Shown here piece by piece: positions 5,458 through 36,090 of a stretch of 36,459 nt of DNA (position 1 is the first letter of the stretch; each line of letters starts with the position of its first letter). The notes under the pieces are model-generated. The model saw only the letters and a program-made list of their open reading frames with translations. It was not told the origin of the DNA and ran no database searches. The DNA lies in NCBI GenBank assembly GCA_013152755.1, contig JAADFR010000010.1, positions 1 to 36,459 of the forward strand, read 5' to 3'. Origin of the DNA: Alphaproteobacteria bacterium. GTDB lineage: Bacteria > Pseudomonadota > Alphaproteobacteria > Sphingomonadales > Emcibacteraceae. Position numbers and translations under genes: made by a program.

Positions 5458-6381
5458 ATGTCCGAAATCCAGACAGATCATCCTGATGAGAATAATACTG
5501 CTGGCATTGTCTATGCCTTGGGGGCCTTTGTTTTATGGGGTCTAGCCCCACTTTTTTTCAAGGAATTATCCCATGTGGCCGCTCTGGAATTTCTCGGGTT
5601 TCGTATGGTCTGGTCGTTTATATTTCTGATTATTTTGCTGTTTTTCCGGCGGTCCCTGAAAATATTGATACAGGAAATAGGCCAGACTTTTGCGAACAGA
5701 AAATTGCTGTTCATGCTGTTTATGTCGGCAATTTTAATTAGTTCCAACTGGCTTGTGTTTATCTGGGCCGTGGCCAATAATCATGTGATGGAAACCAGCC
5801 TCGGTTATTTTATCAACCCTCTGGCCAGTGTGGCTCTGGGGATGCTGGTTTTGGGCGAGAAGTTGAGCCGGACCAAGCTGGCCGCCGTGGGTCTGGCGGC
5901 CTTCGGGGTTATGTATCTGATTGTTGTGCAGGGAAAATTCCCGTGGGTTGCGTTATTTCTGGCCACAAGCTTTGCCCTCTATGGCCTTATTCGGAAAAAG
6001 GCTGTGATCGGGGCCATTCTGGGGTTATGGGTTGAGATGCTGATGTTATTGCCTTTTGCGGTTGGTTATCTGAGTTATCTCAATTTCTCGAAATCATCCG
6101 GGCGGGTCGGCCATGATGACTATACATTGTTTATGCTTATTATCAGCGGTGCCGTAACGACAATTCCGTTGATGTTTTTTGCTTCAGCTGCCCGCAGACT
6201 GCCGCTGTCACTATTGGGTCTTTTGCAATATATTGCGCCGTCCATGACGCTGCTGATGGCGGTGTTTCTGTGGAATGAGGAATTTACTACGGCCCATATG
6301 GTTGCCTTTAGCTGTATATGGGGGGCGCTGGCCATATATTCGGCAGATAGCTTCTTTCCCGTCAGGAACCGCTGGGGATGA
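5458..6381 (+). CDS. rarD: RarD-type EamA-family transporter
   Basis: This is an inner-membrane protein of the RarD branch of the drug/metabolite transporter superfamily, with about ten hydrophobic helices in two EamA halves. The N-terminal GIVYALGAFVLWGLAPLFFKEL matches the RarD signature, and NWLVFIWAV and LGYFINPL are also typical. Its substrate is not established. Three in-frame starts exist: GTG 5428, ATG 5443 and ATG 5458. I choose 5458 because GAAAG lies about 8 nt before it and the length (307 residues) is then close to the usual ~300. The last 20 bases overlap the 3' end of the convergent cyclase-family gene. Confidence 0.88.
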   Translation: MSEIQTDHPDENNTAGIVYALGAFVLWGLAPLFFKELSHVAALEFLGFRMVWSFIFLIILLFFRRSLKILIQEIGQTFANRKLLFMLFMSAILISSNWLVFIWAVANNHVMETSLGYFINPLASVALGMLVLGEKLSRTKLAAVGLAAFGVMYLIVVQGKFPWVALFLATSFALYGLIRKKAVIGAILGLWVEMLMLLPFAVGYLSYLNFSKSSGRVGHDDYTLFMLIISGAVTTIPLMFFASAARRLPLSLLGLLQYIAPSMTLLMAVFLWNEEFTTAHMVAFSCIWGALAIYSADSFFPVRNRWG

Positions 6382-7177
6382 TCGCAAATACCCGGGCCGG
6401 AAAGCCTGATCCCTGATAGGCTTTGGGCCAGCTGGCGATGATCATGGCGCCGGATTCTGGTAACTTGTCCAGATTTGTCATCATTTCAATCTGATATTTA
6501 TTGTGGCTGAGGAAGTATATTTCAAGGGTAAAATCCAGTCTGGACGCTGCCGTTCCGGGATCGGTGTCTGATGTCTCATGGCCAATGGCCGTTATATTTC
6601 GCGTGGTGATCAGATACTCTAGAACTGATCGAGACCAACCGGGGGTATGGGCAATATTATTTTCATCCCGGTTATAAAATTTTACCGGGTCGGGCCATCT
6701 TTTGGACCAGTCCGTGCGCAGCGCAACAAAGGATTTCTCCGGGATCGGGCCATTTCTGCTTTCCCAACTGATGACATCCTCCAGCGAAACCTGATAGTCG
6801 GGATCCGTCCTGACCCGTTCATGAATATCCAGCACCACAAGCGGTAATATCATTTCGCTGACCGGAATGTCATCCAGATAGCGTTTGCCTTTGATGAAAT
6901 GGGCAGGGGCATCCACATGGGTGCCCCATTGGCCAGGGAGTTGATAATAATAGATCAGTGCGCCTGATCCCACAGTACCAACGCCCGGATCATAGTGAAA
7001 CAGGGTTTCAATCTTCTCACCCTTTAATCCCGGCCCGTGGGGAATATCGGGGTGAAAGCTATGGGTCAGGTCAATATAACTGGCCTTGGAAAAATCAAAT
7101 TCCCGGTTGGGATATAAGGCAAGGGCGACCAAAAGGACCGCTCCCGTCATAAATATATATATCAGGCCTTTTCCCAT
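6362..7177 (-). CDS. Cyclase-family metal-dependent hydrolase (kynurenine-formamidase-like fold)
   Basis: The 271 residues carry the hallmark of the family (PF04199): IDLTHSFHPDIP near residue 35 and WGTHVDAPAHF at 84-94, with the metal-binding H87, D89 and H93. Members hydrolyse amide or lactone-like bonds, for example N-formylkynurenine or isatin. The exact substrate cannot be read from sequence. A hydrophobic segment at residues 4-22 suggests an anchored or exported form, unlike cytoplasmic KynB. A GAGG ribosome site lies 6-7 nt before the ATG. It lies downstream of the TonB-dependent receptor on the same strand, but the intrinsic terminator between them argues for separate transcription. 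Confidence 0.87.
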   Translation of the reverse strand: MGKGLIYIFMTGAVLLVALALYPNREFDFSKASYIDLTHSFHPDIPHGPGLKGEKIETLFHYDPGVGTVGSGALIYYYQLPGQWGTHVDAPAHFIKGKRYLDDIPVSEMILPLVVLDIHERVRTDPDYQVSLEDVISWESRNGPIPEKSFVALRTDWSKRWPDPVKFYNRDENNIAHTPGWSRSVLEYLITTRNITAIGHETSDTDPGTAASRLDFTLEIYFLSHNKYQIEMMTNLDKLPESGAMIIASWPKAYQGSGFPARVFAIIPSGS

Positions 7178-10326: not shown

Positions 10327-10513
10327 TGTGTTAGTGGGCTCTAAATCAAGTGATTCTTCTCCTATAACACAGCAGGTTATTTCCCAACCGGCTGGAAAAG
10401 TGAATTTTACTTTCATTTTGAAATTATATATATTAGGGTGGCGTAATTTTCTGACTTGTCTAAGATGACTGTCGGACCAATTGGCGCATAATAATTATAT
10501 TAAGAGAGACCAT

Positions 10514-12148
10514 ATGACCCAGATGAATGCCAGCAGTGCAATAGCAGAAGGTTTAATCGCCAACGGTGTTGATACCGTCTTTGGCCTGCCGGGCGCGCAG
10601 ATGTATGACTTGTTTGAGGCCTTTTACCAGTATCAGGATAAACTCCGCGTTATCGGCGCGCGCCATGAACAGGCCCTAGGTTATATGGCGTTCGGTTATG
10701 CGCGGTCCACAGGCAGGCTCGGGGTATATTCGCCGGTGCCGGGGCCGGGGGTACTGAATAGTACGGCGGCATTATGCACGGCCTACGGTGCGAACACGCC
10801 TGTGCTTTGTCTGACCGGCGAAGTGCCCAACAGCTTCATGGGGCAGGGGCGGGGCCACCTCCATGAATTGCCCGATCAATTATCGCTTATTAAAGGGGTC
10901 ACCAAATGGGCAACCCATGTGGCTGATCCCACAGAGACCCCCGCACAGTTGAATGCGGCCATTACCGCCGCCTGTTCCGGGCGTCAGGGGCCGGTATCCC
11001 TGCAGCTTTGCTGGGATGATTTTGGACGTATGGCCGAAATGGAAACATTATCCGCCGCAGAGATGCCCGTGACCCCTGTGATTGATCCGGATGACCTGTT
11101 GCGCGCGGCAAAGCTTATTAAAGATGCCCGTGCGCCGATGATTTTTGTCGGCAGCGGCGCGCAACATGCCGGTGCCGAGATAAATGAACTGGCTGAAATG
11201 CTCGAAGCCCCCGTAGTTGGGTTTCGCGGCGGGCGGGGCATTGTCGGCGATGATCGGGACATGGGGCTTACCATGGCGGCGGCGTTTAAATTATGGCCGG
11301 ACACGGATTTGATGATCGGTATTGGCAGCCGTATGGAAATTCCCTTCATGCGCTGGGGCAGTTTTATGGATTACCTGCGCCGGATGCCAGGTAAAAAGCT
11401 GGTGCGGCTGGATATTGATCCGGCGGAAATGGACCGGCTGGATACGGACGCCGGAATCATTGCCGATGCCAAAGAGGGCAGCAGAAAACTAATTGACGCC
11501 CTGTCACAGTTGACTGTAACCGCCTCCGGGCGCCGGGACAAAATTGCCGCCGCCAAAGCGGCCTCGGCACAGGAAATTCAGGATATTCAGCCACAGGTGG
11601 ATTACCTGTCTGTGATCCGTGATGTGTTGCCCCGGGACGGCTTTCTGGTGGATGAAGTCTGTCAGGTGGGCTTTGCCACCCCCTACGCTTTCCCGGTTTA
11701 TGAGCCTTTGACTTTTGTCAGTGGCGGCTATCAGGGTAATCTGGGCTTTGGTTTCCCGACCTCCTTGGGGGTTAAGGTGGCCAATCCGGATAAGGCGGTT
11801 GTCTCCATCACTGGCGACGGCGGCTTTATGTTCGGGATACAGGAACTGGCCACGGCGGTGCAATATGATATTGCGGTGGTCGTCATCGTTTTTAACAATT
11901 CCGCTTACGGCAATGTGCGCCGGGATCAGCAACAGCGGTATGATAATCACATCATGGGCGCGGATCTGAAAAACCCCGATTTTATCAAGCTGGCGGAGTC
12001 TTTCGGGGTAACCGGCTATCGGGCCACCAGTCCGGCAGAGTTGAAACCTCTTCTGGAAAAAGCTTTGGCCCTTGGCAAGCCTGCCTTGATTGAGGTCGTT
12101 CAGGACAGAGGTAGTGAAGCCTCCCCCTGGAAATATCTGATGGCTTAG
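10514..12148 (+). CDS. Thiamine-diphosphate-dependent enzyme, acetolactate synthase/2-oxoacid decarboxylase family
   Basis: The family converts 2-oxo acids by decarboxylation or carboligation. The 544 residues show all three domains: a PYR domain with catalytic Glu (RHEQALGYMAFGYAR, E52), a central domain (about 190-340), and a PP domain with the thiamine-diphosphate/magnesium motif GDGGF...NN (GDG at 434-436, NN at 461-462). The start is set at 10514, not the upstream TTG at 10481, because AAGAGAGAC lies just before this ATG and MTQMNASSAIAEGLI begins the normal domain. No acetolactate synthase small subunit follows, and no ilvC is nearby, so a degradative oxoacid lyase or decarboxylase is as likely as biosynthetic IlvB. 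The exact substrate is undetermined. Confidence 0.88.
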   Translation: MTQMNASSAIAEGLIANGVDTVFGLPGAQMYDLFEAFYQYQDKLRVIGARHEQALGYMAFGYARSTGRLGVYSPVPGPGVLNSTAALCTAYGANTPVLCLTGEVPNSFMGQGRGHLHELPDQLSLIKGVTKWATHVADPTETPAQLNAAITAACSGRQGPVSLQLCWDDFGRMAEMETLSAAEMPVTPVIDPDDLLRAAKLIKDARAPMIFVGSGAQHAGAEINELAEMLEAPVVGFRGGRGIVGDDRDMGLTMAAAFKLWPDTDLMIGIGSRMEIPFMRWGSFMDYLRRMPGKKLVRLDIDPAEMDRLDTDAGIIADAKEGSRKLIDALSQLTVTASGRRDKIAAAKAASAQEIQDIQPQVDYLSVIRDVLPRDGFLVDEVCQVGFATPYAFPVYEPLTFVSGGYQGNLGFGFPTSLGVKVANPDKAVVSITGDGGFMFGIQELATAVQYDIAVVVIVFNNSAYGNVRRDQQQRYDNHIMGADLKNPDFIKLAESFGVTGYRATSPAELKPLLEKALALGKPALIEVVQDRGSEASPWKYLMA

Positions 12149-18034: not shown

Positions 18035-19471
18035 TTACGGTGCTGTGGAATTGGCTTCGTCGAACATGTCTATGGGAAAGACATCGGCGGTGTTTGTCAT
18101 GAAAGATTGTTTGCGGAAGAAACGCAGATAGCCGCTCGGCCCCATGCGGGACGCGCCAAGGCCGCTGAGTTTGAAAGAATTTTTCTCGGCCTCATACATC
18201 AGGCTGGTCAGGGCCGCGTCATTGATGCTGATGGCCCCGGCTTCGATCTGTTGCCCAACCTTGACTGCGTCTGCATCATTGCCGGCAAAAACACAGGCGC
18301 TGAGACCAAAGTCACTGTCATTGGCCATCTTTATGGCCTCATCCACTTCCTCAAAGGCGATAATGGGCAGCAGGGGGCCGAAGGTTTCGTCGCGCATGAT
18401 CTTCATATCGGGGGTCAGGCCGGTGATAACCGTGGGGGCACACCATAGTCCGCCATGATTTTCAATTTTGCCGCCGGAATGGATGGTGGCTCCCTTGTCG
18501 CGGGCGTCGGTGATCTGGCTTTCAATGATGGCGGCCTGCCGGTCAAAAATGATCGGGCCCAAATGGCCTGCGTTAATATCCGGGGTGTTGAAGGTCACTT
18601 TTTTGGCTTTTTCCACCAGAAGCCGGACAAAATTCTCATAAATTTCGCGGGCCACATAAATGCGTTCAATGGATTGACAGGCCTGTCCGCTATTGACGAT
18701 AGAACCGCGCAGGAGGGCGGTTGTCGCCCGCTCTATATCCGCATCCGCCAGCACAATGGCCGGGTCTTTGCCGCCCAGCTCCAGAAAGGAAACCGCGAAA
18801 TTACGGGCCGCCTGTTGGCCGACCTTTCGGCCGGTGGCCACACTGCCGGTAAAGCAGATCACATCCACCTGATCTACCACGGCCTGTCCGGCGCTGCCAT
18901 CCCCATCAACGATGGTCAAGACGGGGCTGAGGTCCGGGATGCTGGCGATAATGTCGCGTAAGGGCGCGGCAAAGCGCGGGGTGATTTCGCTGGGCTTGAT
19001 GATCACCGCCGCCCCGGCGAGCAGGGCGGGAATGGCATCTATCAGCGACAGGGTGAGCGGGAAATTCCACGGACTGATCACCCCCACGAGGGCATAGGGT
19101 TGCTTGTCAATATGATAGGTGATGAAGGGCAGGGCGGTGGAGCGTCCCTCATAGGGGGCGTCTTCCGCACGGGCAATTTTGATCCAGCGTTCTAGGGCCG
19201 GGGCGATGGTATCCACCTCCATGATGGAAATTCCCTGCCGTCCGGTATCATTGATCAGGCTGTTGATCAGCTCCTTACGCTTATCTTTCAGAGCGGCCCC
19301 AAAGGCCAAAAGACTTTTGATCCGGCCCTCCAGCCCCATGTCTCGCCATGTGGGTTGAGCCGCCCGTAATTTCTGGCAGGTGTCTTTTATTTCAGTGGCA
19401 TTGGCTGGCGTGAAATGATAGTCGATCAGGCCGGTTCGGGGGTTGCGTACCTGTATATCCTGGCCTGTCAT
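18035..19471 (-). CDS. Aldehyde dehydrogenase (NAD(P)-dependent)
   Basis: This enzyme oxidises an aldehyde to the acid. The 478 residues carry the full catalytic set: VISPWNFPL with N136, IIKPSE with K159, LELGGKDPAIVL with general base E231, and SGQACQSIERIYV with nucleophile C265. Overall it resembles the coniferyl-aldehyde dehydrogenase/class-3-like branch, but the substrate cannot be fixed. Its ATG overlaps the DUF1330 stop by 4 nt (ATGA), and the Rieske oxygenase gene lies first in the same operon. An aldehyde released by oxygenase action, for example by O-dealkylation or ring cleavage, is therefore the likely substrate. Confidence 0.94.
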   Translation of the reverse strand: MTGQDIQVRNPRTGLIDYHFTPANATEIKDTCQKLRAAQPTWRDMGLEGRIKSLLAFGAALKDKRKELINSLINDTGRQGISIMEVDTIAPALERWIKIARAEDAPYEGRSTALPFITYHIDKQPYALVGVISPWNFPLTLSLIDAIPALLAGAAVIIKPSEITPRFAAPLRDIIASIPDLSPVLTIVDGDGSAGQAVVDQVDVICFTGSVATGRKVGQQAARNFAVSFLELGGKDPAIVLADADIERATTALLRGSIVNSGQACQSIERIYVAREIYENFVRLLVEKAKKVTFNTPDINAGHLGPIIFDRQAAIIESQITDARDKGATIHSGGKIENHGGLWCAPTVITGLTPDMKIMRDETFGPLLPIIAFEEVDEAIKMANDSDFGLSACVFAGNDADAVKVGQQIEAGAISINDAALTSLMYEAEKNSFKLSGLGASRMGPSGYLRFFRKQSFMTNTADVFPIDMFDEANSTAP

Positions 19472-19770
19472 AAATCTTCTATTCCCTCAATCAACCGAAC
19501 GCGCACGGTCGCATTATCCTGACGCAATTTTTTGATCTCGGCGTAGGATTCACTTTGCCAGAAGGCCCGGGCCGTGGCCATGGAGGGCCATTTTGAGATA
19601 ACCAACCGGGTGGTATCAGGCCAGTCGCCCTCCAGACATTCGCTTTCGCCTATGCCGCGCACAATATATTCTCCGCCGAATTCCGTAATAAGCTTGGCGG
19701 CCTTCAGAGCATAGCATCTAAAGGCCGCCGGGTCATTAATTTCGGCGAGGATCACCATATAGGCAGTCAT
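19468..19770 (-). CDS. DUF1330 family protein
   Basis: This 100-residue cytoplasmic protein has a dimeric alpha-beta (ferredoxin-like) fold. Family features are the N-terminal AYMVILAEINDPAAFRCYALKA, GGEYIVRG and KWPSMATARAFWQSESYAEIKKLR. No activity is established for the family. Translational coupling on both sides (TAATG with the Rieske gene, ATGA with the aldehyde dehydrogenase gene) says it belongs to the same function, perhaps as a small isomerase-like or product-handling subunit; that is inference only. Confidence 0.88.
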   Translation of the reverse strand: MTAYMVILAEINDPAAFRCYALKAAKLITEFGGEYIVRGIGESECLEGDWPDTTRLVISKWPSMATARAFWQSESYAEIKKLRQDNATVRVRLIEGIEDL

Positions 19771-20897
19771 TAGCTTTTAGGCAGCAACGGGGTCTCATCC
19801 AGAACCCAGTTGTCCTCCGTACGGCGACGGGGAGAGGGAATGGCGTGGACTATTTTACCGCTGGCCCGTTCCGCATTCATTTTCGGAACATCGATACGCC
19901 AGCCATTCTTTTCATATTTCTTGATATGATCGCGGTATTTCACGATGCAGCTATCCGCAGGCATCATAAACTCCTTGGTGATGTCGCGGGGAGTCTGTGG
20001 GGGTTCGACCTCGTCCAGAACATCAATATCCTGTTGGGCAACGATCAGGTTTCTTGACCGTAATCTGGCCCCCATTTCATCGTCAAGACCGGCATTGCGC
20101 ATATTAACCAGAAATACCCGGGTGTTATTTTCATCAATGGGCAGATCATAGGTATATTGATGCATGAAGAATTTACCGCTGGGATGAATTTTGGTCCAGA
20201 ATTGGGAAGGGCCAAAGGTGCCGGACCCGGCCCTTGTGGTCGCCTTGTCCCGCAGTTTGCCGTATTTTTCATCGGGTGTGCCGGAGGATTCATAATCGGT
20301 CATGAAGCCAACCCCCCATTCTTCCTCAATCAGGTCCAGTTTTGGAACCACATAATCATCACGCTCGCCGGAGAAACCGTGGGTGGGATGGACAAATTCA
20401 TTATGGGCCGGGTCAATAGCATTCTCAATGGACCGTTGATAGCTGGTTTTCAGGTTATAAGTCTGAATATTGGCCGCCCAGCCTTCCTGACCAAATTCCA
20501 CAGCGTCCAGCAATGGGGGCCGTTCTTCTTCGGGCAGATCGCCAAGGAAGACAAAAACGATACCGTATTTTTCCTGAGTCGGATAAGCGTCAATCTTGGC
20601 CTTGGGCGGGATGGGGGCATCGGCGCCCCGTGACGGAATTTTGACGCAATCGCCATCCTTGTTAAATTCCCAGCCATGATAGGGGCAGCGGATATTATCG
20701 CCAATCACCTTGCCGGGGGCCGCATCGCCCTGACAGGCCAGAGAGCCGCCCCGGTGAATACAAGTGTTGCTCAGACAATGGGCTTCAGCCTTTTTATCCC
20801 GGAACAGGGCAAAGTTACAGCCAAGCATCATGACTTTCAGGGGCCGTTCGGTAAGTTCTTCGCTAAGGCAAGCAGGATACCAGAAATTGATAAACAT
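19770..20897 (-). CDS. Rieske-type aromatic-ring-hydroxylating oxygenase, alpha subunit
   Basis: The 375 residues carry a Rieske [2Fe-2S] domain with CxH (C46, H48 in NTCIHRGG) and CxxH (C71, H74 in IRCPYHGWEF), and a catalytic domain with the bridging Asp and mononuclear iron ligands in the motif N159-A-I-D162-P-A-H165-x4-H170. A C-terminal Asp within QQDIDVLDE may supply the third ligand. Such enzymes dihydroxylate rings or remove O- or N-alkyl groups using electrons from a reductase. No ferredoxin, reductase or beta subunit is encoded in the window, so partners must lie elsewhere and an alpha-only type is likely. GGAAGGAAA precedes the ATG. The operator at 21015-21031 lies upstream. Confidence 0.93.
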   Translation of the reverse strand: MFINFWYPACLSEELTERPLKVMMLGCNFALFRDKKAEAHCLSNTCIHRGGSLACQGDAAPGKVIGDNIRCPYHGWEFNKDGDCVKIPSRGADAPIPPKAKIDAYPTQEKYGIVFVFLGDLPEEERPPLLDAVEFGQEGWAANIQTYNLKTSYQRSIENAIDPAHNEFVHPTHGFSGERDDYVVPKLDLIEEEWGVGFMTDYESSGTPDEKYGKLRDKATTRAGSGTFGPSQFWTKIHPSGKFFMHQYTYDLPIDENNTRVFLVNMRNAGLDDEMGARLRSRNLIVAQQDIDVLDEVEPPQTPRDITKEFMMPADSCIVKYRDHIKKYEKNGWRIDVPKMNAERASGKIVHAIPSPRRRTEDNWVLDETPLLPKS

Positions 20898-27300: not shown

Positions 27301-27526
27301 CACATTGACCACATTTATCGGTTTGATGCCAATCATCTCAGAACAAAGCAAACAGGCGCAATTCCTGATTCCCATGGCCATATCGCTGGCCTTCGGGGTT
27401 GTCTTGTCTTCTTTTGTGACGTTGATTTTGGTGCCGAACCTCTTTGTCGTACTGGATTCTTTCAAGACATGGGTTAAAGCTAAAATTTTCCGGATACGGC
27501 AACATCGCCGGGGCCAGAATTTATAG
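24395..27526 (+). CDS. RND efflux transporter, inner-membrane pump
   Basis: The 1043 residues match a full-length AcrB/MexF-type or HAE-family pump with 12 helices and two large periplasmic loops. The proton-relay aspartates appear in TM4 (LGIVVDDAIIIGE). The second half has the matching VVVNDNLVLIDYIN in TM10, and SRFRPIFLTTLTTFIGLMPII follows, a family signature. The start is GTG overlapping the adaptor stop, so the two are translationally coupled. Its 3' end overlaps the IclR gene stop by 6 nt in convergent orientation. Sequence type (HAE2/3-like, with short periplasmic domains such as GDMILRTKSQAYNTSDFKNI) does not identify the exported compound. The operator at 23011 suggests substrate-induced efflux. 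Confidence 0.95.
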   Translation: MKGLINWFANNPVAANLMMIAIIFGGLMSMTTLNREIMPSMPSKFIEVSVVYLGADPIEVEDRIAIRVEEAIREIEGIININSVSMQGRGIITAEVSAGYDLQKVLNEIKVQVDAINTFPKEGERPKIRLIKFRERVIQVAVMADTDEKSLKIIAQKVRDDIAALPGVDFAEMKGDRRYEVGIEVSEVALRRYGLTFDAVVEAVRQSSINMPAGTIKAIAGDMILRTKSQAYNTSDFKNITLLKKRDGTRVLLGDVAEVVDGFEEDQVLARFNNKPAIFINVLLTTAPDVVAVTKRVRDYIAKSGSFLPDGVTLVSWLDLSNTFKGRVNILLSSGVNGLILVFSLLMLFLRPAIAFWVCGGIITSFMGALWILPMLDVSLNMLTLFAFILVLGIVVDDAIIIGESVHSGQERGLRGLEAATSGANNVSKPVMFAALTTMVAFSPILFLDGVAAAVMKPLPIVVILALTFSLIEAFFILPSHLAHMKPPGEAKGFITRFLRKIRQTVSGQLSKFVQKYYVPFLAKTLKKKYLTLSAFVAIWLVLFSFVQGGWMRQDFFPTIPSDYIIADVVLTDGIAFGRAESVMRQVEKGAQTLSHAEFKNEDGEPEANPIKNIQTFVKGNKVQVFVDLLPAEERSVDIVEISRRWRHLIGDMADVKQFDMRFQLRSRNKPLSFVLASNNRRTLEQATVDLTTALSKFSGVLDIGDTLRSARQEMVLDLKKEAESLGVSTRDLARQVRQGFFGEEAQRIPRGKDDVKVMIRYPLESRKTVETLKTMRIRTTNGTEVPFEVVADIHFEQGSTEIRRLNRRRVVEITGDVDTEITNAQEVIRKVEREVIPALQEKYPDLEYLLEGDQKEIKSFQAGLLRNTAMALLAIYALIAVAFRSYSQPILVMLAIPFGYLGSVLGHMFLDLPFSMFSFLGVVATAGVVVNDNLVLIDYINKLRASGESAIDAVRKAAESRFRPIFLTTLTTFIGLMPIISEQSKQAQFLIPMAISLAFGVVLSSFVTLILVPNLFVVLDSFKTWVKAKIFRIRQHRRGQNL

Positions 27527-28306
27527 GCTGTGACCGGCGGTGGCCAGTTCTTCTTCCATCTGATCCCGGATTTCGATCAAGGTGGGCAGGTATCTTTCTT
27601 TAAGCTCCGTGGTGCTCATGGCCACGGAAATATAGCGCATGGCCAGCGCGGCCAGAAACTGGCCGTTGCGCATGATGGGCAGGGCAATGGTGTTGGTCTT
27701 GCCCGGTTCCATGGCTCTGGGGGAGCGGATATTTATCGCATAACCATTCTGGCGGATTGTCTCAATCAGTTTGGCAACCGTTTCGGGGCTGTTGGCCAGC
27801 ATATTGGTCTCATCGGGTTTTTCATGGCGCAGGGCAGATAGAACAATTTCACGTTCCGTATCGCTACAATAGGCCAGATAGACATTGCCTGTTGCCGTGG
27901 ACAGGATGGGCAGGCGCAAACCTTCATTATAATAATCAAGGGACAGGGGGCTGTCCGTGTCGGTGGTAAAACGCAGTGACATCCGCACATTGCGCGGCGA
28001 CATGATGGACACCGGCCAGATGACAATCTTGGATAGCTCAATGACCAGCGGCTTGACTATCTCACTGAGCCACGCGTCTTCATTAAAGCCGGAGGCCAGA
28101 TTGCGCACGCGAATAGTCAGGCTGTAACGGCCTTTTTTATCGTTGCGCTTTAAATAGCCGAAAGTGACCAGATTCTCCAGAATACGGAAGGTTGTGGTAC
28201 GCGGCAGGTTTATTTCACGCGCCATCTCGGCAACAGTCATCCTTTTGCGACTGTTGAGAATCTCCAATGCCATTAATCCCCGGCGTAATGACCGAATAGT
28301 ATGCAT
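27521..28306 (-). CDS. IclR-family transcriptional regulator, likely controller of the island
   Basis: The 261 residues comprise an N-terminal winged helix (about 5-70: RSLRRGLMALEILNSRKRMTVAEMAREINLPRTTTFRILENL) and the C-terminal IclR effector-binding domain (about 80-255, with LPILSTATGNVYLAYCS and ALPIMRNGQFLAALAMRY). IclR proteins bind aromatic acids, glyoxylate or similar metabolites and act as activators or repressors of catabolic operons. The divergent gap to the gene at 28476 holds a perfect palindrome (28371-28389), and near-copies occur before four other units, so this is the most likely regulator for all of them. No other regulator gene lies in the right half of the window. Confidence 0.93.
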   Translation of the reverse strand: MHTIRSLRRGLMALEILNSRKRMTVAEMAREINLPRTTTFRILENLVTFGYLKRNDKKGRYSLTIRVRNLASGFNEDAWLSEIVKPLVIELSKIVIWPVSIMSPRNVRMSLRFTTDTDSPLSLDYYNEGLRLPILSTATGNVYLAYCSDTEREIVLSALRHEKPDETNMLANSPETVAKLIETIRQNGYAINIRSPRAMEPGKTNTIALPIMRNGQFLAALAMRYISVAMSTTELKERYLPTLIEIRDQMEEELATAGHSL

Positions 28307-28475: not shown

Positions 28476-29393
28476 ATGTCAGAACAGGACGCCACATATT
28501 TTACGCCGGATAACAAGATGCCGGTTTCACTGGAGCCGGGGGATGTGTGCATCGCGGCCAGCTATTCAGAGGGCGAGGTCGATATACGCCGCAATTCCGG
28601 TGCGGGCCGGGTGCTGGTCTATGACAAGGATTTAACCCTTAAGGGCGCGTTATGGACTGGTGAGGAAGGGCTGATTGTCGGGCTGGAATATTGCCCCTTG
28701 GCACGGGCCTTGTATGTAAGCGATGTCTCCAGCCAGACAGTGAAACGCTTTTCCCTTGCCGGCGATATGCTGGATTCTTTTCCGGCGATGCAGGGCAAAC
28801 CCTTTGGCGTCATGGCGGCAGCGGCGGACGGCTCTATTGTCATCGGCGAACATATCAAAGGCGAAAAATTCCCCTTCATTGGCGGCGGCGAGATTTATCA
28901 CTTTGCGGCGGACGGTGCGTTGCTGGGGCATTACGGGGCAGAGCATGACCCCGGAAAATTTGGTTTTCACGGCGTGACAAATATGTTTCTGGCTGATGGC
29001 GACAAGACAGCCATCTATATTTCAGAGACCGGAAAACGGGTGATGCAGTACGATCTTGCGGCTGGCCAGCAGGGCGCAGATTTATTTGTACTGGATGATG
29101 AAGGTGAGAAATCAACGGCAGGCATAGCCAAGGCGCCGGGGGGTAATATTCTCATGGCCACAGTATATGGTGTCTGCCTCTATTCACGGGCGGGGGAAAT
29201 GCTGAAAGAATATGATATTCCAAAAGAACGCGGCTGGTCTGCTGTACGTCTGTCCGCAGATGGAACAGCTTTTTTTGCGGCGAATTTCTTCACCGGACGG
29301 CTGGAAAAAAGAGCCTTGGACAGCGGCAAAATTATCGCAGCCAAGGATACGGGGTTGGTCTACCGGCTGGCGTCTATTGCGGAAATTTTCTGA
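28476..29393 (+). CDS. Beta-propeller protein, SMP-30/NHL-like, cytoplasmic
   Basis: The 305 residues lack a signal peptide and show repeated strand patterns of a six-bladed propeller, such as GRVLVYDKDLTLKGALWTG, ARALYVSDVSSQTVKRFSLAGDML, TAIYISETGKRVMQYDLAAGQ and GNILMATVYGVCLYSRAGEMLKEYD. It resembles SMP-30/gluconolactonase-type proteins, which often hydrolyse lactones in aromatic or sugar catabolism, but clear calcium and catalytic residues could not be assigned, so the function is open. GGGAG lies about 9 nt before the ATG. It is the first gene after operator 4, and its stop overlaps the start of the VOC gene by 1 nt, implying coupled translation. Confidence 0.75.
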   Translation: MSEQDATYFTPDNKMPVSLEPGDVCIAASYSEGEVDIRRNSGAGRVLVYDKDLTLKGALWTGEEGLIVGLEYCPLARALYVSDVSSQTVKRFSLAGDMLDSFPAMQGKPFGVMAAAADGSIVIGEHIKGEKFPFIGGGEIYHFAADGALLGHYGAEHDPGKFGFHGVTNMFLADGDKTAIYISETGKRVMQYDLAAGQQGADLFVLDDEGEKSTAGIAKAPGGNILMATVYGVCLYSRAGEMLKEYDIPKERGWSAVRLSADGTAFFAANFFTGRLEKRALDSGKIIAAKDTGLVYRLASIAEIF

Positions 29394-29881
29394 TGACGGA
29401 CGGCAAGGTCAATAACCTGCTGCGGCGCACCAGCTTTATCGTGGAAGATGTTGAGAAAACGGCTGTTTTCTATCAGGATATATTTGGCTGGACGCGTTTT
29501 TATGACACCGAAACACCGGTTGATATGCGCTTTCCGCCCTGCGCACCAGATCAGACAACGGGTAAGATTATCATCCTGAAAGTGGATGATCCCTTCATCG
29601 GCATGATCGGTTTTATGGAATATGATGGCTTTATGCCCGAAAGCCGGGTGGACTCGAGTCGCAAGACTTTGGGCATTGGGGACGCCATTTTGATTATAGA
29701 AAGCAAAAATATTCAGGAAACTTATCAGAAGGCACAGGATAGCGAGGCTAATCTGGTGACATCTCCTGTGGAATGGTCGGTGAAAGGTCAACCGGGTCAG
29801 GATGTTATCAGGCTTTCTACTTTCTCATTTTTTGACCTGAACGGCATCTATGTGGAAGTGAATAGGCGGCTTTCCGATTGA
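29393..29881 (+). CDS. VOC-superfamily (glyoxalase/dioxygenase fold) protein
   Basis: The 162 residues show a paired beta-alpha-beta-beta-beta unit: LRRTSFIVEDVEKTAVFYQDIFGWTRFYD in the first half and a second half ending SFFDLNGIYVEVNRRLSD, which carries the usual terminal Glu ligand. The first-strand position that normally holds a metal His appears to be Arg or Thr, so metal binding at that site is doubtful. VOC proteins in catabolic operons act as extradiol dioxygenases, isomerases or lyases, or bind small compounds. The class cannot be decided here. It overlaps the propeller gene by 1 nt (TGATG), and the next unit starts after operator 5. Confidence 0.85.
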   Translation: MTDGKVNNLLRRTSFIVEDVEKTAVFYQDIFGWTRFYDTETPVDMRFPPCAPDQTTGKIIILKVDDPFIGMIGFMEYDGFMPESRVDSSRKTLGIGDAILIIESKNIQETYQKAQDSEANLVTSPVEWSVKGQPGQDVIRLSTFSFFDLNGIYVEVNRRLSD

Positions 29882-30041: not shown

Positions 30042-31073
30042 ATGTCAGAGTATCTGGTTGCGCAGGACGGGAGTTATGAAACAGTACCGTTGAAGAAAGA
30101 TGACATCGTGGTCATGGCGGTTCAGTCCCGGGTTGTTCCGGTCAAGGTTGAAAATGCCGTTCAGATGAAACGGGATAATCTTAACCATATGCTGGACCTT
30201 ATCGATGCGGCGGCCACATGGATGGGGCCAAAAGACCTTATTCAGTTTCATGAATTTCCGATTACCGGCTTTTCCTTTATGTGGACAAGGGCAGACCTTC
30301 AGAAAGTTGCCATTGAAATTCCGGGCGTTGAGACCGAGGCCGTGGCGGCCCGGGCCAAACGGTATGGCTGCTATATTGTATTTGGCTCTTACGCTATTGA
30401 CCCGGACTGGCCGGAGCATATCCTGTCCATCACCACCATCATCGGCCCCGATGGCTCAATCGTAGATAAGCATTGGAAGCTCCGCAATATCAAGGGCGTC
30501 TTTGCCGGGTTTGAGGTAATTACCACCACTATTTTTGATGTGCTGGATCAATATACGGAAATGTATGGCCGGGATGCGGTCATTCCGGTAACCCGTACCG
30601 ATATTGGCAATCTGGCCACTACCGCAACGCAGTATGAACCGGAGCTTATCCGGGCCTATGCACTGAAAGGTGCGGAGATCATGTTACGGTCAGCCACCAG
30701 TGGTGCGGACCCCATTGATGTGCGCGCTGGCGCCATGCATAACAATATGTACACAACGCTGGTCAATAATTCCATCAGCCATAATCCGGGGCCTTTCTTT
30801 GAAGATGTACGCTCTGGCGGCACAGCGATTTACGGGCCAAAGGGTGAGGAGCTGGATATTGCCAATTCGGTCAATGAAACCGGGGTCATGGCGTCTATTC
30901 CCATAGCATCCTTTCGAAAAACCCGGCGGTTACCGCGTATTCACCCCAGCCTTTACGGTGATCTTTATGACCAATATCAGGAGGCTTATCCGCCCAACCT
31001 GATGTCTACGGATTTACCCAATGACGGCTTTTCTGCCGCCAAATTTCTAAAAGACAAAAGCCGTTGGGGTTGA
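30042..31073 (+). CDS. Nitrilase-superfamily protein lacking the catalytic cysteine
   Basis: Active carbon-nitrogen hydrolases use a Glu-Lys-Cys triad to cleave nitriles or amides. This 343-residue protein keeps the fold (FHEFPITGF with Glu E71, VDKHWKLRNIKG with Lys K146, and PELIRAYALKGAEIMLRSATSG, like aliphatic amidases), but at the nucleophile elbow it reads IGNLATTATQYEPE, with Thr193 where Cys is expected. The only nearby cysteine, in YGCYIVFG, is elsewhere. It may be a pseudoenzyme, a binding or regulatory subunit, or use different chemistry. The ATG at 30042 is preferred to the TTG at 30033; AAGGG lies upstream. It heads an operon with aldehyde dehydrogenase (4-nt gap) and MFS transporter genes. 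Confidence 0.85.
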   Translation: MSEYLVAQDGSYETVPLKKDDIVVMAVQSRVVPVKVENAVQMKRDNLNHMLDLIDAAATWMGPKDLIQFHEFPITGFSFMWTRADLQKVAIEIPGVETEAVAARAKRYGCYIVFGSYAIDPDWPEHILSITTIIGPDGSIVDKHWKLRNIKGVFAGFEVITTTIFDVLDQYTEMYGRDAVIPVTRTDIGNLATTATQYEPELIRAYALKGAEIMLRSATSGADPIDVRAGAMHNNMYTTLVNNSISHNPGPFFEDVRSGGTAIYGPKGEELDIANSVNETGVMASIPIASFRKTRRLPRIHPSLYGDLYDQYQEAYPPNLMSTDLPNDGFSAAKFLKDKSRWG

Positions 31074-31077
31074 ATTT

Positions 31078-32607
31078 GTGAATGAAATAATAGACCACGA
31101 CAAAATTACGTCGCAAATTCAGGCTTTTCTGGACAAGCCCCATGGCCATTTCATTGATGGTCAGTGGATTAATGCCCACTGTATTGATGGTAACTCCGGA
31201 AAGACCATTGATGTAATCAGTCCGGCAACGGGTAATATTGTCTCATCCATACAAAGCGGGGACGGGGCTGATGTGGACAGAGCGGTTGCGGCCGCCCGCC
31301 GGGCCTTTGATTCTGGCGTATGGTCAAAGGCTCTTCCCGTGGAACGGGCGCGTATTATGTTCAAGCTCGCCGATCTGATAGAGCTTCATGCCAGCCAGAT
31401 CAGCCAGCTGGAGGCCCTTGATATTGGCGTTTCCCGTCATATGATGGAAACCATCGGGGTTAAATTATCCGCCAATCAGCTCAGATATTATGCCGGATGG
31501 GCGACCAAAATAAACGGTGAAACCATTACCAACAGTCGTCCGAGACCAGAGGGCCGGGAGTTCCTGACCTATACGGAAAAGGAACCTGTGGGGGTTGTGG
31601 GCCAGATTATTCCATGGAACTTCCCCTTTGCCATGGCAGTGCAGAAAATTGCTCCGGCTTTGGCCGCAGGATGCACTATTGTCATGAAACCGGCAGAAGA
31701 TGCGCCGCTGTCAACGCTTTATCTGGCGGATTTGATTGCCCAGACGGGATTACCGTCGGGGGTATTTAACCTTGTGAATGGGTATGGCCGTAAGGCGGGG
31801 GCCGCCATTGCCGCCCATGAGGGTGTTGATAAAGTATCCTTCACCGGCTCCACAGATGTGGGCAAGGAAATTATCCGCTCGGCCACTGGCAACCTGAAAC
31901 GCACCACGTTGGAGCTTGGCGGGAAATCGCCGGTGATCCTGTTGAAAGATGCCGATCTGGATGAGGCCATTCCGGCAGTAGCCAGAGCCATATTCTTTCT
32001 GTCCGGACAGAATTGCATGGCTGGGTCGCGCCTTCTGGTTCACGGTGATATTTATGACCGGGTTCTTGAAGGACTTGTCACGCTGGCCAAATCAATGACC
32101 ATTGGCGCGGATATGACCGGGACATATGACATTGGTCCTCTGATTTCAGAAAAACAGCTCACCCGTGTTCTGGCCTATATTGATATTGGTATCAGTGAGG
32201 GCGCGCGCCTGATTGCGGGCGGGAAACGGGTGGAAAAACTGCCCGGTTTCTTTGTGGAGCCGACAATATTTGCCGATTGTGATCCAGGCATGAGGATTGT
32301 TAAAGAGGAAATTTTTGGCCCTGTTCTGACAGTTCAGAAATTCAACGGTGATGATCTTGATGATATTGCGGCGCTGGCCAATGACAATATTTTTGGGCTT
32401 TCCGCTAGTGTCTGGACAGCTGATTTGGCGCAGGGGCACAAGCTGGCCCGTAAGATAAAATCTGGTCAGGTGGGCATAAATGTTCATGCCGCCATTGATC
32501 CGGCAACCCCGTTTGGCGGCTATAAACAGTCGGGCTGGGGCCGTGAGTTTGGCCGCGAGGGTCTTGAGCCATACCTGGAAACCAAGGCAATTACAGCGTA
32601 TTTGTAG
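31078..32607 (+). CDS. Aldehyde dehydrogenase (NAD(P)-dependent), second copy
   Basis: The 509 residues carry the catalytic set IIPWNFPFA (N181), IVMKPAE (K204), TLELGGKSPVILL (general base E279) and SGQNCMAGSRLLV (nucleophile C313), and the closing GGYKQSGWGREFGREGLEPYLETKAI. It resembles the betaine/phenylacetaldehyde-type branch more than the aldehyde dehydrogenase at 18035, so the two probably act on different aldehydes. The start is a GTG 4 nt after the nitrilase-like stop. It lies before an MFS transporter gene (15-nt gap). Regulation through operator 5 is inferred. Confidence 0.94.
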   Translation: MNEIIDHDKITSQIQAFLDKPHGHFIDGQWINAHCIDGNSGKTIDVISPATGNIVSSIQSGDGADVDRAVAAARRAFDSGVWSKALPVERARIMFKLADLIELHASQISQLEALDIGVSRHMMETIGVKLSANQLRYYAGWATKINGETITNSRPRPEGREFLTYTEKEPVGVVGQIIPWNFPFAMAVQKIAPALAAGCTIVMKPAEDAPLSTLYLADLIAQTGLPSGVFNLVNGYGRKAGAAIAAHEGVDKVSFTGSTDVGKEIIRSATGNLKRTTLELGGKSPVILLKDADLDEAIPAVARAIFFLSGQNCMAGSRLLVHGDIYDRVLEGLVTLAKSMTIGADMTGTYDIGPLISEKQLTRVLAYIDIGISEGARLIAGGKRVEKLPGFFVEPTIFADCDPGMRIVKEEIFGPVLTVQKFNGDDLDDIAALANDNIFGLSASVWTADLAQGHKLARKIKSGQVGINVHAAIDPATPFGGYKQSGWGREFGREGLEPYLETKAITAYL

Positions 32608-32622
32608 AAAGTGCAGACGTAA

Positions 32623-33942
32623 ATGACAGACGTGACAGCAGAAGAGGAAGGCATAAAATTCGGCCCGGTATATCTGGAGCCGGGGGTGACCAAATGGAAT
32701 GCGCGAACCTATTTATTCTCCGCATTCTGGACCATTGGTTTTCTGTCCTTCATGAGCTTTTTGCAGAATTATGTGCTGAAGGTTCACTTGAATATGCCCG
32801 CCAATGAAATTGGCCGGGCTATTGGTACGCTGTCCTTCGTGGGTGAGATTGCTCTGCTGACCGTATCACCATTTTTTGGCTCCCTGTCCGACAAGGTTGG
32901 GCGGCGGCCAATTTTTGCTCTGGGCTTTTTGTGGGTCGGGGCCGGATTTGCCTTATACCCTCTGGCGACCAGCTATGAAATGCTGTTGATTTTCCGGGCC
33001 TTCATGGGGGTCGGGGCGGCGGCGCTTGGTGGCATGATGGCAACGGTATTGTCGGATTATCCGCAAAACAGGTCACGCGGATTTATGGCGGCCATGAGCG
33101 GCTGGGCAAATGGCCTTGGCGCCATGATGATGATTTTCCTGCTCAGCAAGCTGCCACAATATTTCAACGGCAAGGGTGTATCGGCGGAGATGGCCGGAAC
33201 CTATACCTTCTGGGTAACGACGGGCCTATGTGTCCTGACGGCGGCAGTTTGCTTTATCGGTTTGAAACCCGGCAAACCCGGAAAATCCAGAAAAAGAGAA
33301 AAAGTTACTATTTTAATAAAACAAGGCTTCGGCGCGGCGCGGGGCAACCCCCGGCTGGCCCTGGCCTATTCCGAGAGCTTTATCGCGCGCGGTGACCTGT
33401 TGATGATTGGCACCTTCCTGTCTGCGTGGCTTATTCAGGCGGGCATGTCGAACGGTCTTGATGCCCCGGAAGCAACCAGTAATGCGGGCCGGATTGGCGG
33501 TATGGTACAGGCGGTGACCCTGGTATGGGCTCCTATATTTGGCATAATACTGGACCGGTTCGATCGGACATCGGTGGTGATATTTGCCATGATGCTGGCT
33601 GTGATTGGGTATGCAGGCGTGGGCTTGACCGAAGACCCCACTTCACCATCGGCTATATTGGCATTGGTGATGCTGGGGATCGGGGAGTTTTCGGCCATCA
33701 TGGCGGGGCAGGCTCTTGTGGCGCAGGAGGCGCCCATTGACAACCGGGGGTCCGTGCTTGGTGTTTTTGCCTTTTGCGGCGCGCTGGGGTTATTAACGCT
33801 CAGCATGATCGGGGGACATTTATTTGATGATATTGGGCCGGGAGCACCATTTCTACTGGTGGCTGCGGTGAATGGAGTCATCCTGTGTTTCGCAATATAT
33901 GTGCGGAAAAAAACGGGATACAAGTCGCCGAAATTACGATGA
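32623..33942 (+). CDS. Major facilitator superfamily transporter
   Basis: The 439-residue inner-membrane protein has about 12 helices and a central hydrophilic loop (GKPGKSRKREKV, near residue 220). Motif A is visible between helices 2 and 3 (GSLSDKVGRRPIFAL), and RAFMGVGAAALGGMMATVLSDYPQNRSRGFMAAMSG is like the aromatic-acid or polyol proton symporter groups. Position as the third gene of the nitrilase-like operon suggests uptake of the pathway substrate rather than drug export, in contrast to the TetA-like transporter at 21725; this is inference. The ribosome site before the ATG at 32623 is weak. Confidence 0.9.
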   Translation: MTDVTAEEEGIKFGPVYLEPGVTKWNARTYLFSAFWTIGFLSFMSFLQNYVLKVHLNMPANEIGRAIGTLSFVGEIALLTVSPFFGSLSDKVGRRPIFALGFLWVGAGFALYPLATSYEMLLIFRAFMGVGAAALGGMMATVLSDYPQNRSRGFMAAMSGWANGLGAMMMIFLLSKLPQYFNGKGVSAEMAGTYTFWVTTGLCVLTAAVCFIGLKPGKPGKSRKREKVTILIKQGFGAARGNPRLALAYSESFIARGDLLMIGTFLSAWLIQAGMSNGLDAPEATSNAGRIGGMVQAVTLVWAPIFGIILDRFDRTSVVIFAMMLAVIGYAGVGLTEDPTSPSAILALVMLGIGEFSAIMAGQALVAQEAPIDNRGSVLGVFAFCGALGLLTLSMIGGHLFDDIGPGAPFLLVAAVNGVILCFAIYVRKKTGYKSPKLR

Positions 33943-34004: not shown

Positions 34005-34976
34005 ATGCTTAAAATATTTAAGGAACCTCCGTTTGTGGGCATTATTGCCTTTATGGCGGTGCTGTTTTTTCAGCCATTGGGTCACATAGCCATGATCCTG
34101 ATGGAGAAATTAATCAGTAGTGGGACAAGGTGGTATTCACCTGTTTTCGATACGCCGCCTGTGATTCCGCCGGGATTTGATGATTATTCTATCATTGACA
34201 ACAGTATTTATTGGTCCGCTTTTGTGATTGGTCTGATAGGGCTGATCGTTATAATATGGGGAATTAGGAAAAATACAGAAATTGCCGGAACCTGGGCCGG
34301 CTTTATCGGGGCCTCTTTGCTCTGGACAGGTTGGGTTGAGTTTTCCATACATTTCCACGCACGTTATTTTGGGGTCAAGGCATTATGTGCGCCGGGCCAA
34401 TGGGCTTATGCCTGTGCGGAAAATCCTTCTACAAAGCCGGAATATTTCCTGATGCAGGGGTCGGTGGGGTTCTTGCTGGGTATCGGCCTTTTCTTTCTGT
34501 TTAACAAAGAAACCCGGTGCAATGCCTTTCGCTGGATGCACCGGGTATTCAGGATAAATGTGGGCAAACCATCTCCTGGCCTGACCCGTAATTTTGCCAA
34601 TATTGTAGCGGCGGAAACCATCGGTATTCTGTGGTTCTTCTATGTTTATCTGATGTTTATTTATGATGAGACCATGTTCGGTGAGCATCATTGGTTTACC
34701 TATTTTTCCTTTGTTGGTGCCGGCCTGTGGAGCCTGTATCTTATCCGGCGGCTTTTGCTGTTTAAACGGGTGACCATTGCGCTGCGCTATGCCATTCCAA
34801 CAGCCATCATCTTCTGGAACACCATTGAGATCATGGGCCGGTGGCACTGGTTTAAGGAATTCTGGATTCACCCGCTGGATTACAAACTGGAATCAGCGGC
34901 TGTGTTGGTGGCGGTGATCGGTTTCGCGGTTATCAGTGTTAAATCAGCCCGGAAAAAAGAAAATCAAATTGATTAA
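34005..34976 (+). CDS. Eight-helix inner-membrane protein of unknown function
   Basis: The 323 residues contain about eight hydrophobic segments (near 9-29, 69-88, 94-113, 149-168, 205-225, 233-251, 257-275 and 297-315). Notable are clustered histidines near membrane edges (SIHFHARYFG, GEHHWF, RWHWF, FWIHP) and a paired-cysteine loop (ALCAPGQWAYAC), which could bind metal or haem and form a disulfide. I do not recognise a family. AAAGGAAAG lies before the ATG. It is 62 nt after the MFS gene and 13 nt before a lipoprotein gene, with a TonB-dependent receptor next, so a membrane-spanning uptake or redox module is plausible but unproven. Confidence 0.8.
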   Translation: MLKIFKEPPFVGIIAFMAVLFFQPLGHIAMILMEKLISSGTRWYSPVFDTPPVIPPGFDDYSIIDNSIYWSAFVIGLIGLIVIIWGIRKNTEIAGTWAGFIGASLLWTGWVEFSIHFHARYFGVKALCAPGQWAYACAENPSTKPEYFLMQGSVGFLLGIGLFFLFNKETRCNAFRWMHRVFRINVGKPSPGLTRNFANIVAAETIGILWFFYVYLMFIYDETMFGEHHWFTYFSFVGAGLWSLYLIRRLLLFKRVTIALRYAIPTAIIFWNTIEIMGRWHWFKEFWIHPLDYKLESAAVLVAVIGFAVISVKSARKKENQID

Positions 34977-34989
34977 GGAGGAAGTAAAA

Positions 34990-36090
34990 ATGAAAATATC
35001 CATGAAATATGGCTTGCTGGCGACAATTATTCTGGTGGCTGGCTGTTCCGAACAGGCGACTGAACAGGCAAAGAAACCTGCGGTGGCTGAAGGTACCGAC
35101 TATACGCTGGTGACACCAAAAAGTGTTAATGACAAGGAATTACCTATCTGGATGATTCCCAATATGCCGGAATCTGCCGAGGCCTATTACGGGCCGGACA
35201 GCTACCATGTCATTGCCCAGACTCAGGATCCGGACGCGGTTCGCCCGTCCAGTGCGCGAGCGGCTGGTGGTGCCTTGACCTGGATTACCACTGACGATGG
35301 CAAAAAGAAATGGCGGATCAATGACCACGGTCAGGACGCCTGCTCATACATTATGCCGGACGGCAATCAGGTGGTTTTTACATCAACCAAGGATCACCCG
35401 GAAATGCCGGTCGGTAACTGGTCCAGTGAGACCGATTACCCACAGGGTGCCGAGCTGTATATGGCTGATCTGGACGGCAAGAATGTTCGCCGTCTGACTG
35501 ATAATGACGTTTATGATGCGGAGGTTTCCGTCAGCCCCGATGGTAGCAAAATTGTCTTCACCCGTCAGATTGATGGCAAGCTGGATATCTGGATGATGAA
35601 TTCGGACGGCACCAACGAACATCAATTAACCTTTACCGAAGACTGGCAGGAGGGTGCGCCCTTTTTCCTGCCCGATAACAAAACATTGACCATGCGGGCC
35701 TGGAAACGGTCCGAGCATGATATTTCCCCGACACCGATGACCGTCTTTACGGTCGATACGGAGACGGGCAAGGCGACCCCGAAAACCAGCGATGGCTGGA
35801 TGAACTGGGCGCCTTATCCGACGCCGGATGGCAAGCATTACGTCTTTGTCCGTCCTTTAAAAGAAAATCCCATGAACTGGGAAATTTATCTGGGGAGCCT
35901 TGAGGGCGGCGACCCGGTACGGCTGACATATAATGACAGCTTTGACGGTTTTCCTTCTGTCTCCCCGGACGGAAAGAAAATGCTTTTTACCCGTAGTACA
36001 GGCGAACATTTTATGTCTGACCTTTTTACCTTTGTGATGGATATATCCTCATTGAATGTAGGGCCGGAAAATGCAGATGTGAGTGAGTAG
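34990..36090 (+). CDS. TolB-like (WD40/PD40) propeller lipoprotein
   Basis: The 366 residues start with a lipoprotein signal, hydrophobic LLATIILVAGC with Cys20 of the lipobox, so the protein is lipid-anchored in the periplasm. The domain carries PD40-type repeats, seen as LYMADLDGKNVRRLT, VSVSPDGSKIVFTRQIDGKLDIWMMNSDG, and FPSVSPDGKKMLFTRST. PD40 propellers bind proteins (TolB binds Pal) or sugars, or act as periplasmic enzymes; no catalytic residues were identified. The ATG at 34990 is chosen because it has a perfect AAGGAGGAAG site and the lipobox; the upstream frame would overlap the membrane-protein gene. It is followed by the TonB-dependent receptor gene, so the three probably cooperate. 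Confidence 0.85.
   Translation: MKISMKYGLLATIILVAGCSEQATEQAKKPAVAEGTDYTLVTPKSVNDKELPIWMIPNMPESAEAYYGPDSYHVIAQTQDPDAVRPSSARAAGGALTWITTDDGKKKWRINDHGQDACSYIMPDGNQVVFTSTKDHPEMPVGNWSSETDYPQGAELYMADLDGKNVRRLTDNDVYDAEVSVSPDGSKIVFTRQIDGKLDIWMMNSDGTNEHQLTFTEDWQEGAPFFLPDNKTLTMRAWKRSEHDISPTPMTVFTVDTETGKATPKTSDGWMNWAPYPTPDGKHYVFVRPLKENPMNWEIYLGSLEGGDPVRLTYNDSFDGFPSVSPDGKKMLFTRSTGEHFMSDLFTFVMDISSLNVGPENADVSE

Follow-up and report, generated by a model that had tools for sequence, protein, structure and literature searches.

Glu, Lys and Cys are the catalytic residues of the nitrilase superfamily, and Cys is treated as a defining one. The window, i.e. the whole 36,459-nucleotide stretch of DNA analyzed here, encodes a superfamily member, P0001 (343 amino acids, ATG start, CDS 30042-31073, plus strand), in which no catalytic Cys was found within the elbow (residues 189-201) and the other two catalytic residues are kept, so that it may still bind its substrate as nitrilases do and carry out a different reaction on it. 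The features of the gene are given below; fractions refer to the 33 rows of an alignment of sequences of the P0001 type (window-type), from which the near-copies L003, L005, L008 and L012 were omitted, in which many rows span the matched stretch only, and after which L099 was found.

30042-31073, plus strand: Cys-less nitrilase-superfamily protein P0001 (translation, Pfam, AlphaFold model)
30249-30254, plus strand: His70-Glu71 in HEFPITG, Glu71 being the counterpart of the catalytic Glu (each 32/33)
30369-30371, plus strand: Cys110, the sole cysteine of P0001 (Cys in 15/33)
30477-30479, plus strand: Lys146, counterpart of the catalytic Lys (33/33)
30606-30644, plus strand: GNLATTATQYEPE (residues 189-201), the remodelled elbow, two residues short of the pattern G-x6-[CSA]-x5-P (alignments)
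30618-30620, plus strand: Thr193, initially taken as the Cys counterpart (Thr in 21/33; opposite Cys in no alignment made)
30621-30623, plus strand: Thr194, one candidate for the Cys position (Ser 23, Thr 10 of 33)
30627-30632, plus strand: Thr196 and Gln197, the other candidates (residue 196 V, T, S, A or I; Gln197 in 32/33)

P0001 matched the Pfam CN_hydrolase domain (PF00795) with 58.2 bits (curated cut-off 23.2, E 1e-15) and thus carries the superfamily domain. None of the NCBIfam equivalogs reached its cut-off, and the scores for the aliphatic amidase/formamidase equivalogs NF009802 and NF009803 (30.2 and 34.1 bits) were far below the required 427 and 406 bits. The fold of P0001 is that of a nitrilase in a predicted model only. 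A first AlphaFold model, built with 11 close relatives without canonical rows, had a pLDDT of 43.6 and gave good chain matches to the N-terminal half only, e.g. to 5g3o (136 columns at 2.4 Å). A second model was built from 18 rows, seven of which were canonical members of the nitrilase family taken from viral contigs, and is therefore biased towards the nitrilase fold; it had a pLDDT of 71.8 and a pTM of 0.78, and residues 191-200 of the elbow averaged a low pLDDT of 64. With this second model, Foldseek matched nitrilase-superfamily chains at E values down to 2.4e-17, and VIA-align gave Z 29.4 and rmsd 3.2 over 283 residues with the amidase 4kzf, and Z 28.3 and rmsd 2.1 over 246 residues with 1j31. 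The predicted fold is shared with AmiE/AmiF (PDB 2uxy, 4kzf, 2dyu, 5g3o; Z 28-29), and the Glu region, the Lys region and the PE...KGAE helix all align, at approximately 20% identity in the structural alignment. AmiE/AmiF use a Cys, whereas P0001 has none at the elbow. Glu71 (codon 30252-30254) and Lys146 (codon 30477-30479) are present, as the initial annotation had stated.

That annotation had further read the elbow as one with Thr in place of Cys and had assigned Thr193 as the counterpart. The positions given for the elbow (30606-30644) and for the Thr193 codon (30618-30620) were correct and the absence of Cys was confirmed; the assignment of Thr193 found support in no alignment, and Thr occurs there in only 21 of the 33 relatives (Val in seven, Met in four, Ile in one). 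The pattern G-x6-[CSA]-x5-P fits 27 of 30 sequences outside the clade, and the three others (L028, L100, L103) miss it via another residue with the length intact. All 38 window-type rows lack two of the elbow residues that the Cys, Ser and Ala relatives have; the elbow is therefore remodelled, and a plain replacement of Cys by Thr does not describe it adequately. Where the lost Cys would have stood depends on the method. Of three profile-profile comparisons, two matched residue 196 with the Cys or the Ser, and in the remaining one the Ala faced a gap. A window-type HMM aligned with 15 of 16 outside sequences (none for L104) gave residue 194 in nine cases and 196 in six, at low posterior values. 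MAFFT with distant nitrilases from viral contigs gave 197, and in a pairwise match to cyanide dihydratase the Cys lay opposite a gap. Thr193 was rejected as counterpart, the alignments pointing to 194, 196, 197 or a gap and never to 193. In the second AlphaFold model, a strand spans residues 189-193, a loop 194-199, and a helix starts at 200; these limits suit residue 194, at the elbow's mean pLDDT of 64.

The loss of the elbow Cys is genuine. Ten loci with 79 to 99% identity to P0001 came from a scan of genome contigs, in records titled Emcibacter, Sphingomonadales, Robiginitomaculum, Alphaproteobacteria and Proteobacteria. Among sampled whole genomes of the family, 13 of 32 gave a match at E 0.001, seven of them with an intact window-type gene; 27 of 396 genomes of the order and three of 385 of the class gave a match at E 1e-25, and two of 398 of the phylum did so in a clade profile search at E 1e-40, each of these counts including the host genome. 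G686 and G763 lie within the class but outside the order, and G850 within the phylum but outside the class. From these counts, the spread of window-type genes is sporadic. Three copies each are present in G154 (L046, L059, L061) and in G686 (L063, L064, L065). Viral-contig scans with the clade alignment, two Cys-type relatives and L100 found no relative. In a plasmid collection, relatives reached at most 31.0% identity with P0001 as query, and at most 33.7% with the relative L042 among the 15 of 18 records listed. In a tree of 58 rows, from which near-copies (L003, L005, L008, L012, L029, L030, L033), the partial L063, two outliers (L102, L103) and the pieces of an interrupted copy were left out, all 33 window-type rows fell on one side of a branch with 100/100 support. 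The conserved Cys-less branch proposed initially therefore exists as a single clade; owing to long deep branches and an outgroup that does not make up one side of a branch, the tree gives no firm order of Cys loss among the groups.

Selection on the P0001 gene is strongly purifying. For P0001 against five relatives (of eight pairs), dN/dS was 0.027 to 0.072; in the remaining three pairs dS was saturated, with pN/pS of 0.14 to 0.18. Across residues 189-201 of nine sequences, only residues 191 (L/I) and 196 (T/V) change, and codons differ silently. The open frame, this selection and relatives with the same kind of elbow bear out the initial view that the elbow did not arise by frameshift decay. 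Decay or an assembly artefact in a single fragmented genome might have been suspected, as the host genome is in 191 contigs and its Lnt gene appears split by a frameshift, but is very improbable given that the same kind of elbow occurs in independent records from distant genera and that the gene is free of stops and under purifying selection. A window-type-like relative broken by stops, seemingly a decaying copy, was observed at G020:C55:73645-74309 (L026, L036, L038). Frameshift, decay and artefact were rejected on the evidence of the relatives, and in comparison with the broken copy the P0001 gene has no stops.

Glu71 was found in 32 and Lys146 in all 33 window-type rows, and R148, N149, E158 and Q197 were each found in 32, as was H70. 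Residue 194 is Ser or Thr throughout, and at 196 the rows have 17 Val, 10 Thr, 4 Ser, 1 Ala and 1 Ile. The conserved polar set of the clade thus comprises H70, R148, N149, E158, S/T194 and Q197; the exception is the long-branch member L061, which lacks Glu71 and Gln197. A displaced Cys acting as nucleophile, the case named in the initial annotation as contradicting its reading, was looked for in the relatives. Cys110 is Cys in only 15 of 33 rows, and neither it nor Cys192 of L062, L063, L064, L045 and L099 is conserved. Six of the 33 rows contain no Cys throughout the aligned stretch, which excludes a displaced Cys nucleophile for the clade; five of the six were also Cys-free from an upstream Met to the stop (L010 was not matched in that check). 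The clade of P0001 is a distinct nitrilase branch that has lost Cys and two elbow residues and has kept the Glu-Lys pair, the polar set and, as modelled, the fold.

Nine PF00795 matches in the host genome correspond to eight proteins. Six of them contain the Cys (L100 to L104 by alignment, and the apolipoprotein N-acyltransferase Lnt on contig C8); the two without it are P0001 and a paralogue on contig C162. The Lnt gene (L106/L108, contig C8) is split across two frames by an apparent frameshift, read by eye. The paralogue (L002 702-1757, also L105; G000 contig C162; 29% identity to P0001) forms with 12 other tree rows a Glu-Arg-Ser (E-R-S) family that has likewise lost Cys. In this family, Arg stands in for Lys and Ser for Cys on an elbow of normal length, whereas the P0001 type has kept Lys on a short elbow; the 13 rows form their own clade (100/100) apart from the window-type clade, and P0001 is not a member. 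As the E-R-S family retains Glu without Lys and Cys, a conserved Glu could be structural. A further group, the Ala-type relatives (L022 and L068 5908-6999 on a Tsukamurella plasmid), has also lost Cys and has Ala at the position; unlike P0001, its elbow has the normal length and it groups with Cys-type rows in the tree. The Tsukamurella gene adjoins genes annotated as cyclase family, indolepyruvate ferredoxin oxidoreductase and salicylyl-CoA 5-hydroxylase.

For the role of P0001, its gene neighborhood was considered. Neighbors were placed by tblastn and Pfam positions, as in some genomes simple ORF calls hid a gene behind antisense ORFs.

27521-28306, minus strand: IclR-type regulator, divergent from the cluster (Pfam)
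28476-29393, plus strand: SMP-30/gluconolactonase-like protein (Pfam match just below cut-off)
29393-29881, plus strand: VOC (glyoxalase/dioxygenase superfamily) protein directly upstream of P0001 (weak Pfam match, E 1.8e-4)
31078-32607, plus strand: aldehyde dehydrogenase directly downstream of P0001 (Pfam, NCBIfam)
32623-33942, plus strand: MFS transporter (Pfam)
34005-36090, plus strand: two co-directional ORFs, one with no Pfam match followed by a PD40-repeat protein (ORF list, Pfam)

The gene set of P0001, placed beside a divergent IclR gene, fits the regulated catabolic cluster that had been suggested initially. The order IclR, SMP-30-like, VOC, P0001 counterpart, aldehyde dehydrogenase is shared by L004 to L009. 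At the Robiginitomaculum loci L010-L012, tblastn found no IclR, SMP-30-like or VOC gene, and the aldehyde dehydrogenase is retained. A VanA-type Rieske oxygenase is encoded in the window at 19770-20897; by tblastn, a relative of it is located within the L009 cluster, near L011 and, with an SMP-30-like gene, beside the distant members in L080 and L081. For L052 and L059, which are distant members, genes of both kinds lie nearby. Elsewhere in the window (6362-7177, 10481-12148 and 18035-20897), genes for a cyclase-family protein, a thiamine-pyrophosphate enzyme, an aldehyde dehydrogenase and the VanA-type Rieske oxygenase were observed, which may be part of an aromatic degradation island. PDB sequence searches at E 0.001 gave no match for the VOC protein of the window (one at E 0.14), for its SMP-30-like protein or for the VOC protein adjoining the E-R-S paralogue.

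The association with VOC genes was quantified. The VOC protein of the window had a tblastn match at 13 of 34 window-type loci. Of 23 genomes from 18 genera, 12 (9 genera) had a PF00903 gene no more than 6 kb away from a window-type gene, with approximately 1.8 genomes expected from VOC counts. Such a gene was seen in G000, in G319, G355, G358, G312, G127 and G044 among the matches listed, and in G387, G027 (5.9 kb), G045, G196 and G154 (one of three copies). In the other 11 of 23, no VOC gene lay within 6 kb (G850, G033, G034, G056, G074, G088, G232, G763, G686, G247 and G188, where one lies 6.2 kb away); G006, G008, G009, G011, G015, G076 and G086 were outside the count. The rough probabilities of this proximity, 3e-8 when counted by genome (4e-7 without G027) and 9e-6 when counted by genus (9e-5 without G027), are to be taken as indications only, owing to genome relatedness, contig ends and the choice of genomes. 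A VOC gene within 6 kb was also found for six of seven E-R-S copies examined, versus none of four Cys-type and none of one Ala-type copies (small numbers), and in five of the seven it lies directly upstream on the same strand.

The likeliest role of P0001, at a probability of about 0.43, is that of a catabolic enzyme that works without Cys, the catalysis being deduced from conserved residues and gene context. The retention of E71 and K146 favors a working active site; a pocket that still works without its nucleophile would be expected to lose Cys and yet keep Glu and Lys along with newly conserved residues, and an accessory catabolic role is in keeping with the sporadic spread and with genomes that hold as many as three copies. 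P0001 would bind a small intermediate supplied by the neighboring enzymes (the VOC-fold protein, the Rieske oxygenase, the aldehyde dehydrogenase), and Glu71 and Lys146 could then provide general acid-base catalysis; addition of water, hydrolysis of a lactone or imine, and tautomerization are candidate reactions. The neighbors suggest an oxidized or ring-cleaved intermediate as substrate. Several observations speak against a Cys-independent enzyme: the persistence of Glu in the E-R-S family, the absence of Glu71 and Gln197 from L061, the low pLDDT of the elbow, the 11 of 23 genomes with no VOC gene nearby, the lack of VOC, SMP-30-like and IclR genes at L010-L012, and the diversity of VOC-fold proteins together with the weak match of the one in the window. 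The retention of the pocket weighed against the warning from the E-R-S family sets both this estimate and those for the two readings below.

A pseudoenzyme that binds a ligand or a partner such as the VOC protein or the aldehyde dehydrogenase, with Glu and Lys kept for folding or binding, is somewhat unlikely. In its favor are the variable residue type at 196, if that is the Cys position, the E-R-S paralogues that keep Glu without Lys and Cys, and the neighbor type shared by two Cys-less groups. The invariant K146 and the nearly invariant H70, E71, R148, N149 and Q197 argue against it, and the contig of the window holds no second PF00795 match as a possible partner. P0001 might instead be an ordinary covalent hydrolase in which Ser/Thr194 replaces Cys, the two missing residues belonging to the preceding strand and the [S/T]-x5-P spacing being intact. 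This we regard as rather improbable, even though residue 194 is Ser or Thr in every row, stands six residues before Pro200 as Cys does in relatives, was paired with the Cys/Ser/Ala position in nine of 15 HMM alignments, lies where the model strand has ended (193) ahead of the helix (200), and has a parallel in the squid E-K-S homologues described in the excerpted text of PMC5541922. The profile-profile comparisons (two favoring 196, one a gap), the six HMM alignments giving 196 at low posteriors and the MAFFT result of 197 all point elsewhere, and Ser and Thr are common in strands.

In a literature search with subscription papers mostly outside its reach, no description of a Cys-less short-elbow branch was found. 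According to the excerpted text of PMC5541922, symplectin/pantetheinase homologues of cephalopods (squid) carry E-K-S or E-R-S, a natural Cys-to-Ser replacement, so the loss of Cys as such is not new in the superfamily. These homologues belong to an animal branch with Ser in place of Cys, and the excerpted text mentions no shortening of the elbow; a conserved clade of bacterial proteins with a short elbow seems to be a new variation. The most far-reaching possibility, at a little under even odds, is a nitrilase-fold enzyme class without Cys that would use either Ser/Thr194 as nucleophile on the short elbow or Glu71-Lys146 without a covalent intermediate, and would act on the product of an oxygenase or VOC protein in an undescribed pathway. 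Proteins are called hydrolases on the nitrilase domain alone. If the findings hold true, a conserved Cys-less branch with Glu and Lys would mean either non-cysteine chemistry in the nitrilase fold or a group that is misannotated as hydrolases, and with three Cys-less groups among the sampled relatives this question is open to comparative testing.
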